36,629 nucleotides of DNA, taken from assembly GCA_009773495.1 (NCBI GenBank), contig WSXW01000018.1:1-36629 (forward strand), read 5' to 3'. Positions 21,908-24,510 of this stretch are shown piece after piece. Below the pieces are notes generated by a model. That model was not told the origin of the DNA. It made no database searches and saw nothing but the letters and a program-made list of their open reading frames with translations. This DNA is from Bacillota bacterium (lineage in GTDB: Bacteria > Bacillota > UBA994). Within the stretch, counting starts at the first letter, position 1. Each line of letters starts with the position of its first letter. Made by a program: the position numbers and the translations under genes.

Positions 21908-21936
21908 AGAGCGTGGAGGCCTATTTGTGTGACAGC

Positions 21937-21964
21937 ACCAAGCCCCCGCTTGGCGGGGCTTGGT
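21937..21964 (+). terminator. GC-rich hairpin after the HD gene; one of two similar copies
   Basis: ACCAAGCCCC / GGGGCTTGGT closes a CGCTTGGC loop. The core CCCGCTTGGCGGG recurs in the hairpin at 24469-24499. There is no T run. It may be a terminator or a dispersed palindromic repeat. Confidence 0.55.
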
Positions 21965-22027: not shown

Positions 22028-22247
22028 CTACTGCTTAACCATATGGTCGGTCAACTGTATGAACTGCTCTATTTCCCTCTCGATAATCTCCAGTGACTTG
22101 AGCCAGAATTCCTTTTGGGTGATATCAATATTCATGGTGCCGGCCACATCTATTGCCATCATCTTGGTAGTATTATTGAGCAGCGTATTGTTGGTACTGA
22201 GCGTACAAGCCTTTACCGAACAACAGACCAAAGGCGTAGGGATAAGC
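22028..22247 (-). pseudogene. remnant of an M3-family oligoendopeptidase (C-terminus, frameshifted)
   Basis: Two frames on this strand together read like the C-terminal end of an M3B oligoendopeptidase. Frame A (22247 to about 22173) gives AYPYAFGLLFGKGLYAQY and then a stop; frame B (about 22172 to 22028) gives MNIDITQKEFWLKSLEIIE and ends ...QLTDHMVKQ. The catalytic HEXXH region and everything upstream are missing. The homology begins where the duplicated transposase segment ends (22245), so mobile-element activity probably truncated the gene. Confidence 0.55.
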
Positions 22248-22350
22248 TCGCGCAATGCTCTGTTGCGCTCTGTTGGGTTCATTTCTTTGAGCATACCTAC
22301 CGGGTGCCCGCCCATTATTAGCTGTACCGCTGCAAGAACTTCAGCTGTTG
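22245..22350. repeat. 106-bp partial duplication of the RAYT gene (copy 1)
   Basis: It is identical to 22486-22591 except for one base (G/A in GCAATRCTC), in the same orientation and offset by 241 bp. On the minus strand it encodes AEVLAAVQLIMGGHPVGMLK and onward to NRALREL, part of the transposase C-terminal region. One end overlaps the REP-like palindrome by two bases; the other abuts the M3 peptidase remnant. Confidence 0.9.
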
Positions 22351-22377
22351 TCCCATGGGGACGGGGGAATTGGGACA
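22349..22377 (-). repeat. REP-like palindromic element, copy A
   Basis: The 29-bp element has TGTCCC / GGGACA ends around a CCCCCGTCCCC core (minus-strand sense). It shares 25 of 29 positions with 23379-23407, in inverted orientation. It lies 29 nt downstream of the RAYT stop codon, as expected for a substrate palindrome of such a transposase. Confidence 0.65.
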
Positions 22378-22406
22378 TAATCACCACGATCGCCTCCCCA
22401 GCCAAG

Positions 22407-23168
22407 TTAGGCCCGTTCCACTACTTTCCTGCCAAGCCCCACCAATCGAGCGATTTTTGCACTACTGACCCCGGGTATAGTCTTCAGCTCGCGCAATACT
22501 CTGTTGCGCTCTGTTGGGTTCATTTCTTTGAGCATACCTACCGGGTGCCCGCCCATTATTAGCTGTACCGCTGCAAGAACTTCAGCTGTTGAAGCATTAG
22601 CGGAATCCTCAACATCCTGGAAGTCGTACTTACTAGTCTCTCCGTGAAACTCCACAAATTGCTGGAGCCCGCCAGTTACGCCAAGAGCAAACGCAGTGTC
22701 GGTCAGCTCGCCCCGATGCTCCTTTCCTGTTGTATAAGCGAGATAACTGCTCCAAACGTAATGGGCGCACTCAGTGGTTATCCCTGCCTTAATGGGGTTT
22801 TGGTGAACATACCGCACTGCAGCAATTAAGTATGGTTCGCTCTCTATTGGTTCACTGAGGAACCGGTCCTGAAATAAGTACCCCACGCGCTCATATTTGT
22901 GGTTGTACCAATACACATAAGATGAGCCAAGGCGCCTCATGATTTCACCGATATTATCATCATCGCCTTCAGCGATGACCAAATGGACATGGTTACGCAT
23001 GAGACAGTAGGCATACACTTGGCATCGTGTCTTCTTTTTGACCGTGTCCAGTGTTTCAAGATATCTACATCTATCCTCAGGCTCCATAAAGATGTCCTGT
23101 TTGTTGATTCCTCTGACCATTACGTGATAAATCCCTGTTTCACTTCTGATTCTTGCTATCCTTGGCAT
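22407..23168 (-). CDS. REP-associated tyrosine transposase (RAYT, IS200-like Y1 fold)
   Basis: The protein has 253 residues. Residues 1-180 form the Y1/HUH nuclease: the HUH pair is H60-V-H62 in LMRNHVHLVI and the nucleophile is Y120 in AVRYVHQNPIKAG. The tail 231-253 (IPGVSSAKIARLVGLGRKVV) looks like a DnaA-type HTH, common in Gram-positive members. RAYTs act on short REP palindromes, which are present on both sides here (22349-22377, 23379-23407). The ATG lies 6 nt from an uninterrupted G11 run that stands in for the ribosome site. All catalytic residues are kept, so it may be active. Confidence 0.88.
   Translation of the reverse strand: MPRIARIRSETGIYHVMVRGINKQDIFMEPEDRCRYLETLDTVKKKTRCQVYAYCLMRNHVHLVIAEGDDDNIGEIMRRLGSSYVYWYNHKYERVGYLFQDRFLSEPIESEPYLIAAVRYVHQNPIKAGITTECAHYVWSSYLAYTTGKEHRGELTDTAFALGVTGGLQQFVEFHGETSKYDFQDVEDSANASTAEVLAAVQLIMGGHPVGMLKEMNPTERNRVLRELKTIPGVSSAKIARLVGLGRKVVERA
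22486..22591. repeat. 106-bp segment inside the RAYT gene (copy 2, the source)
   Basis: This is the intact, in-frame copy within the transposase gene of the sequence repeated at 22245-22350 with one mismatch. The near-identity points to a recent duplication. Confidence 0.9.
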
Positions 23169-23174
23169 ACTCTA

Positions 23175-23185
23175 CCCCCCCCCCC
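23175..23185 (-). repeat. G11 homopolymer at the RAYT ribosome binding position
   Basis: Eleven consecutive C on the plus strand read as G11 on the coding strand, 6 nt upstream of the transposase ATG. Such tracts change length by slippage and could alter translation initiation. The count may also be a sequencing inaccuracy. The 23186-23378 region beyond it holds a 7-bp inverted repeat (AGCGAGG 23192-23198 / CCTCGCT 23250-23256) and no gene I can support. Confidence 0.6.
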
Positions 23186-23378
23186 ATAAATAGCGAGGGA
23201 TAGCTGCCAGAATCCTGCTGTAATGTTCTCCCGTCTCACAGGAACGGTACCTCGCTCTAGTAGAATCTTACCAAACACTTGTTTGCATAGCAAGAAAATA
23301 CGTAGTTGTATGGGATATGGGAGTAGCATTCGTTAGGCGGAGTCATGGTCGCAGAAAATTCCACATACCGGCCTGATG

Positions 23379-23407
23379 TGTCCTGTTTCCCCCGTCCCCA
23401 TCGGACA
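23379..23407 (+). repeat. REP-like palindromic element, copy B
   Basis: This 29-bp element has TGTCC / GGACA ends and the same CCCCCGTCCCC core, and is inverted relative to copy A. It joins directly onto the NHL gene remnant and supplies a fortuitous ATG and eleven codons to its frame. Confidence 0.65.
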
Positions 23408-23936
23408 TAGGTTTCGCGCCACAGGCGAACTACTTGAGACCATTGGTAACGGCATGCCAGGTTTTCAAAAGGAAACTGTAGCCTTTGAGCAAGCACAGTT
23501 CAACTGGATCTACGACCTTCGTTTAGGGCCAGATGGCAATATCTATGTGCTAGACAGTAAAAACTACGCCGTAAGGATGCTAAATACCCATACGCGGTGT
23601 GTAACTACCATTGCTGGCACTGGATGTTCAGGCTCAGCCCTATATTCTGATGACCTACAAAGCGCTACTTTTGGAAGTAATCCTGCAACCACTTTCGACG
23701 GACCTTGGTCTATGGTTTTAGATGAATCGGGTAATATCTACATTGGCGACACCTGGAACAAGGCCATACGCATGATTGACTCCTCACGGCGTAGTATAAG
23801 CACAATTTGCGGTCCCGAGCACGACGTGGACCTAGATCACATTTGCAGCCTAGATTACTTTGGTGGCAGGCTATATATCCCCCTCTGGGATAGTAAACTC
23901 GTAGTGCTTAAGCGGGAGCCTACCTCGACAGATTAG
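23408..23936 (+). pseudogene. 5'-truncated NHL-repeat (beta-propeller) protein
   Basis: The remaining 176 codons hold NHL-type blades: LRLGPDGNIYVLDSKNYAVR, TIAGTGCSG and MVLDESGNIYIGDTWNKAIR, each pairing a D-x-x-G-N-I-Y strand with a following xxAxR turn. NHL proteins are usually extracellular or cell-surface propellers. The 5' part, including any signal peptide, is missing: upstream of residue 1 lies REP copy B, whose translated bases (PVSPVPIGH) are not NHL sequence. No ribosome site precedes the ATG at 23376. The gene is therefore probably dead, cut by the REP event. Confidence 0.65.
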
Positions 23937-24459: not shown

Positions 24460-24510
24460 AAACTAAAGCCCCAAGCTCCCGCTTGGCGGGGGCTTGGGGA
24501 CCGTTAGTTT
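24460..24510 (-). terminator. long hairpin at the 3' end of the secreted protein gene
   Basis: The inner 14-bp stem (24469-24482 with 24486-24499, one G-T pair) is extended by AAACTAA / TTAGTTT. The stop codon of the minus-strand gene lies in the outer stem. The core CCCGCTTGGCGGG matches the hairpin at 21937-21964. Confidence 0.6.

Follow-up and report, generated by a model that had tools for sequence, protein, structure and literature searches.

Background

RAYT transposases and the REPs that accompany them are best studied in Gammaproteobacteria, where the REPs are GTAG hairpins. IS200/IS605 transposons have ends that are not inverted copies, and they occur as multi-copy, near-identical sequences. 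The E. coli enzyme TnpA-REP requires GTAG and acts on REPs in single-stranded form, with cleavage at a CT next to the hairpin (PMC8266576). Outside this well-described type, Di Nocera et al. (2013; PMC3733652) reported TIRYT genes with flanking inverted repeats that share GGGGWSAS. Quentin et al. (2018; PMC6006769) placed most TIRYT genes in TnpAY1 subclass 2.1, characterized by an HTH-like C-terminal domain similar to Bac_DnaA_C, HTH_23 and HTH_28, and equated this subclass with Bertels group 1. REP-like sequences near subclass 2.1 genes were not found in that study by either automatic or manual search.

Here we describe a locus in a stretch of 36,629 nucleotides (the window; contig WSXW01000018.1) from a genome of 2.52 Mb in 76 contigs (G000). 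The locus is likely a TIRYT-type, REPtron-like unit (TnpAY1 subclass 2.1), consisting of a Y1/HUH transposase with a helical, possibly HTH-like C-terminal domain and two inverted cognate hairpin ends. The new part is the hairpin form of the elements, with a fixed loop and a changing stem, together with its spread over a phylum and its populations in some genomes.

Results

The transposase

Features of the locus are collected in Table 1. The first-pass annotation had described the Y1/HUH transposase between the elements as intact, and we agree: the open reading frame is whole, and H60-V-H62 and Tyr120 are kept. The protein matches Pfam Y1_Tnp (E 8e-14), with NHVH from residue 59 (N59-H60-V61-H62) and YVHQNP from residue 120 (Y120-V-H-Q-N-P), and thus has the H-hydrophobic-H and Y-x-x-x-N-P motifs in a Y1/HUH domain that define the RAYT / TnpA-REP superfamily. 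The catalytic residues are conserved over 49 homologues. NCBIfam REP_Tyr_transpos matches the window protein at E 6.5e-20, with a score of 71.5 bits that lies under the cut-off of 80, and all 49 aligned members match it at E<=0.01. An AF2 model based on the 49-sequence alignment is confident (pLDDT 93). Of the PDB structures, 4er8, a complex of TnpA-REP with a REP hairpin, matches it best, followed by the IS608 and ISDra2 transposases, and 4er8 was the sole match in a sequence-profile search of the PDB. These structure matches span the catalytic part of the protein. The C-terminal part is a separate, confidently modelled helical region, for which a weak HTH_23 match was found in 14 of 49 members (best E 0.0013) and none in the window protein.

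As judged from sequence, the length, motifs and repeats of the window protein agree with subclass 2.1. Features shared with the published subclass are length (median 238 aa, versus 253 here), NHVH, Y[IV]H-NP, FQ replacing WQ and low copy number (PMC6006769); the C-terminal HTH-like domain may be a further one. At 23175-23185, 11 consecutive C (11 G in the coding direction) occupy the positions 7-17 bases 5' of the transposase start codon, where a ribosome-binding site would be; the length of this run could vary and tune translation.

Table 1. Coordinates of the unit and its immediate neighbours in the window
Feature	Position	Strand	Description
M3-family oligoendopeptidase C-terminus remnant (left flank, outside unit)	22052..22186	-	TIGR02290 positions 543-587 of 587
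Second copy of transposase 3' coding part, 131 bp	22220..22350	-	91% like 22461-22591
Downstream hairpin element	22349..22377	+ (GGGGACGG on + strand)	7-bp stem TGTCCCA/TGGGACA, 15-nt loop
Conserved loop motif GGGGACGG of downstream element	22357..22364	+	
RAYT/TIRYT transposase, 253 aa	22407..23168	-	Y1/HUH catalytic domain and helical, possibly HTH-like C-terminal domain
Upstream hairpin element	23379..23407	- (GGGGACGG on - strand)	TGTCC/GGACA stem of 5 bp; the two inner pairs are mismatches
Conserved loop motif GGGGACGG of upstream element	23392..23399	-	
NHL-repeat gene, 3' part (5' part missing)	23409..23936	+	Homology to intact relative

The flanking elements of the window locus

The two 29-nt elements are inverted, 25/29 alike (86% complementary) and 1001 nt apart, and both carry the TGTCC/GGACA ends and the CCCCCGTCCCC core, all as initially annotated. 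Their composite 29-bp pattern occurs at these two places only in the window (expected 0; 100 shuffles), and the pair has an inverted-repeat score of 21, against at most 14 for mismatched controls. The downstream copy, TGTCCCA-tg-GGGACG-ggggaat-TGGGACA, has a perfect 7-bp stem in the register common to the family and folds accordingly, at -5.1 and -5.7 kcal/mol as DNA on its two strands. The upstream copy retains the outer 5 bp and has weak or alternative folding, and its distance from the start codon is much longer than is typical for homologous loci. Relative to the GGGGWSAS of TIRYT / subclass 2.1, the motif here is GGGGAC[G/A]G: GGGGACGG, present in both window repeats, agrees at 7/8 positions, and GGGGACAG, found in some homologues, is an exact match. 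The window's own pair fits the hairpin pattern of the family described below.

Recurrence and hairpin structure across the phylum

Of 398 genomes sampled from the phylum, 86 have homologues at E<=1e-35. The closest named homologues found belong to Pullulanibacillus, Virgibacillus and Oliverpabstia, all members of Bacillota, which suggests that the window also comes from this phylum. We oriented 118 homologous loci, mostly of the same phylum, and scanned upstream against downstream flanks for inverted repeats free of any sequence assumption; controls that used another locus's reversed flank (n=400) reached a maximum score of 14. Inverted repeats above 14, and up to 46, flank approximately 89 of the 118 loci, and most contain GGGAC[G/A], while for about one-quarter of the homologues the scan gave no clear pair. 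Most of these related loci thus carry inverted repeats on their flanks, and each copy is a predicted hairpin. A stem of 6-9 bp that differs from gene to gene encloses a loop of ~15 nt with a near-constant GGGGACGG. The upstream hairpin is typically 35-47 nt from the start codon, and the downstream hairpin begins ~-5 to +10 nt from the stop codon.

Among 81 elements picked by flanking homology alone, the inner seven pairs pair in 43-79%, versus 27-56% when the arms are shuffled. In an ungapped alignment of 56 of these elements, a set reduced by hand (near-duplicates, off-register elements and wrong cores dropped) that favours structure somewhat, 82.1% of stem cells are paired versus 55.5±1.7 in shuffled sets, and the covariation score is 0.626 versus 0.179±0.021, a value reached by 0 of 500 shuffles. 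Covariation collapses when the partner is slid by 1-3 columns, every slid register scoring far lower, and RNAalifold found the identical helix unprompted. All four Watson-Crick pairs are in use at the variable stem positions. Stem similarity between elements tracks protein similarity (Mantel r 0.26, p 0.0005). In the loop, GGGAC, whose invariance was fixed by the search pattern, is followed by G in 72/82 and 70/80 elements and is mostly preceded by G. Outside the hairpin, information content is near zero on both sides. In a TGACA sub-family (L067, L075, L087 and L091), the stem has an A-A mismatch at a constant place, reminiscent of the conserved bulge of E. coli REPs.

G-T pairs make up 15% of non-Watson-Crick cells, versus 17% in shuffled arms; this lack of excess implies no selection for wobble pairs and so argues for DNA rather than RNA. 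A stem with no wobble preference points to recognition as DNA. It is scarcely credible that the elements are transcription terminators or attenuators of the transposase mRNA, as their positions just 3' of the stop codon and 5' of the start codon might suggest: besides the missing G-U preference, the loop motif is conserved far beyond the needs of a terminator, the same element stands inverted on both sides of the gene, and there is no matching Rfam family. An Rfam match to sR39 (E 0.59) was dismissed as chance.

The first-pass annotation had read the locus as a REP-RAYT unit. The RAYT-type transposase between two inverted hairpins stands, and this layout is found in most relatives, but the elements are not canonical REPs. 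A gammaproteobacterial REP-RAYT unit guided by GTAG at the hairpin foot would share the catalytic domain, the inverted two-sided layout and the REPIN-like pairs seen in one relative (G269, below). However, GT[AG]G shows no enrichment around the foot, where 5/83 elements have it and ~8 are expected by chance; no base outside the hairpin is conserved, and the invariant motif lies in the loop. The protein is also longer here and has a C-terminal domain. We consider the canonical reading very improbable and rejected GTAG REPs as a description of these elements on the grounds of the foot and the flanking bases.

Dispersed hairpins in related genomes

The first-pass annotation had expected the abundance of the motif to be tied to the transposase. 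This is borne out in relatives, where the cognate hairpin is abundant with the transposase and absent or nearly so elsewhere. The GAAGCA...TGCTTC element of genus g3 has 45, 70, 51 and 33 copies in G004-G007, four relatives of the same family; it has 1 copy in G003 and 0 in eight other genomes, and reversed-pattern controls gave 0 everywhere. A covariance model of the element gave at least 141 matches in G269 (a lower bound, from 150 scored candidates), 49 in G001, 32 in G002 and 22 in G003. The model also gave 2 matches each in G011, G013 and G086; G011 and G013 have no transposase homologue at E<=1e-20. Among the places listed in G269 are at least 13 head-to-head hairpin pairs, 35-43 nt apart start to start, in a REPIN layout (for example ..GGAAGCAAGGGGACGGTTCTTTTGCTTCCTAAAAAAGGAAGCAAAAGAACCGTCCCCTTGCTTCC..). 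These population counts compare a small number of genomes, and the high values in genus g3 can also be explained by common descent within it.

The dispersed copies are pertinent to a further alternative, in which the elements are double-stranded palindromic operators for the C-terminal HTH domain, serving autoregulation or double-strand binding of transposon ends, and the hairpin never forms. Covariation restricted to Watson-Crick pairs suits a DNA hairpin and a double-stranded palindrome equally, the upstream element is commonly 35-47 bp 5' of the start codon in a possible promoter zone, and some members have the weak HTH matches in their C-terminal part. Against operators, copies flank the gene on either side and are also scattered at a distance from it, and the most conserved part of the element is the loop rather than the palindrome. 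Furthermore, the catalytic domain belongs to a family known to act on single-stranded hairpins. We therefore regard operators as an unlikely explanation, albeit one to be taken seriously, and prefer a hairpin formed in DNA.

Copies in the window's own genome

The first-pass annotation had held that its reading would fall if the motif were absent elsewhere in the genome, and in the window's own genome this is the case. With up to 3 mismatches allowed, the 29-bp pattern occurs in G000 only at the two flanking sites. A looser pattern, which also catches the ends of relatives that are 55-56% identical, found the same two in G000, 7 in G002 and 2 in G003. The many dispersed copies that characterize a REP are thus lacking in the window's own genome and present in G004-G007 and G269. 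With only two exact copies in its genome, the window locus is a solitary unit rather than the source of a REP population, and dispersal by the window transposase is unsupported there. The covariance model gave 14 matches in G000 at E<=1; the best was the downstream element of the window (E 8e-5), the upstream element ranked ninth, and the remaining matches differ from them in the stem, which is for instance of the GAAGCAA or AACAAA type. G000 therefore holds scattered relatives of the element and no population of the window type. The system is at its minimum in this genome (one gene, two ends and no dispersed copies), and is accordingly either newly arrived or quiescent.

A four-copy cluster of the 11-mer CCCCCGTCCCC on contig C44 of G000, with a spacing of 60-64 bp, was set aside as a tandem array beside a different RAYT gene and not as more copies of the window type. 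The units of the array are ~60 bp long and contain GGGGACGGGGG. The RAYT-like gene in question (locus L007, 8365-8800 and 8916 onward) also lies beside a cluster of other palindromes (GGGCACGGCAGTGCCGTGCCC), and the whole appears to be a second, separate REP system.

Edges of the unit

The second copy of the transposase 3' coding part is a direct repeat that reaches exactly to the outer limit of the downstream element and on its other side runs on into the peptidase-like remnant, whose TIGR02290 match (E 2e-7) is far under the family cut-off. On the other side, homology to the intact NHL-repeat protein of G005 starts at 23406, within the upstream element by 2 bases as counted from its outer edge, and the first 143 residues of the G005 protein have no match anywhere in the window. 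Both sharp edges are compatible with a unit bounded by two hairpins; a rearrangement could also explain them. A 25-nt repeat lies on either side of the unit (21934-21958 and 24467-24491, ~2.5 kb apart), with an internal inverted repeat AGCCCCAAGC..CCGCTTGGCGGGG that has the appearance of a terminator-type hairpin.

Neither an empty site nor an excision was observed. Two near-identical units of one genome (L067 and L083) are 93.8% alike over 854 bp and have different sequence outside the downstream end; as proof that the hairpins bound a moving unit this is only suggestive, because L083 adjoins an assembly gap on its upstream side and the downstream copies of both lack the outer stem arm. L120 and L124 are alike from the upstream element onward until shortly before or at the stop codon region, and there is no downstream element. 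In L067 (G191, near 2324-2404), ~4 nt separate the upstream hairpin from the 3' terminus of a tRNA-Ala gene, a possible insertion site.

Alternatively, the window locus could be a decayed ordinary insertion sequence, its repeats being the terminal repeats of one immobile IS200-like copy with no wider role. There are only two elements in its own genome, the upstream stem is imperfect, and the adjoining truncated NHL gene and duplicated 3' gene segment resemble debris. The intact open reading frame and catalytic residues speak against decay, as do the solo hairpins dispersed in relatives. Although most homologues are divergent and present in low copy number, covariation persists at their ends, as continued use predicts. 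We judge a decayed insertion sequence to be improbable, though still a reading with some claim, and retain that of a REPtron-like unit.

Discussion

It is hypothesized that the transposase recognizes the element as a DNA hairpin, reading a family-wide signal in the GGGGACGG loop and an address in the gene-specific stem. Tyr120 would then cut single-stranded DNA beside the hairpin, and hairpins may be moved or copied one at a time or in head-to-head pairs. Purely by analogy with E. coli, the loop motif may do part of the job of GTAG, with the stem giving each pair its specificity. If this mechanism is true, each of many transposase-hairpin pairs would combine a fixed part with a variable one, and these two parts would allow co-evolution of transposase and repeat to be tested through stem and loop swaps between pairs. 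The open question of domesticated transposase-repeat co-evolution would thereby become testable.

We lean, with some reserve, toward a broader proposal for the phylum (probably Bacillota). A whole class of RAYTs that has been classed as without REPs may use a third kind of REP, with GGGGACGG in the loop instead of at the foot, a fast-changing transposase-specific stem and REPIN-like populations in some genomes. Such elements would be the loop-tagged counterpart of GTAG REPs. The survey of subclass 2.1 found no REP-like sequences (PMC6006769), whereas most relatives in this phylum have them here; if the proposal is true, it corrects the published statement that subclass 2.1 has no REP-like partners. 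No report of GGGGACGGTTC-type repeats was found by exact string in the literature searched, which is weak evidence of novelty as that literature had nothing on bacterial repeats by title or abstract.

The elements resemble several known systems in part; among published categories, TIRYT/TIRtron is nearer than the gammaproteobacterial REPtron. The TIRYT/TIRtron description also has a RAYT-like Y1 transposase with inverted repeats on both sides, and some families are moderately repeated (PMC3733652). The published repeats are terminal inverted repeats, of which only some are partly self-complementary (PMC3733652), whereas those described here form hairpins in which the stem covaries and is particular to each gene while the loop keeps a fixed register. 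They are found across a phylum, and a single genome may hold as many as 70 exact cognate copies, or at least 141 matches to the model. The E. coli-type REPtron (subclass 2.2; PMC8266576, PDB 4er8) shares the catalytic fold, inverted hairpins on both sides, a specific hairpin for each transposase and REPIN-like pairs. Its guide is GTAG at the hairpin foot, whereas our elements have no foot motif and carry the conserved motif in a ~15-nt loop. IS608 and ISDra2 of the IS200/IS605 transposons share the HUH/Y1 fold and hairpins at both ends, but the units here are low-copy and divergent and have inverted ends. CGTC, the tag of another group of REPs (Di Nocera et al. 2013), also occurs inside the complement of the loop motif (CCGTCCCC). 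In those REPs it is an unpaired end tag with no associated transposase, whereas here it lies in the loop of elements that flank a transposase, and the likeness is probably a coincidence.

Among relatives of other groups, five named ones (R. rubrum, Legionella, Iodobacter, P. aeruginosa and Sporomusa) have GGGGTCAG or GGGGACAG repeats with no evident matching stem. The GGGGTCAG repeats flank related transposases in Sporomusa, Rhodospirillum, Legionella and Iodobacter (L205, L209, L210 and L211), and in Rhodospirillum, GGGGTCAGACCCC is itself nearly palindromic.
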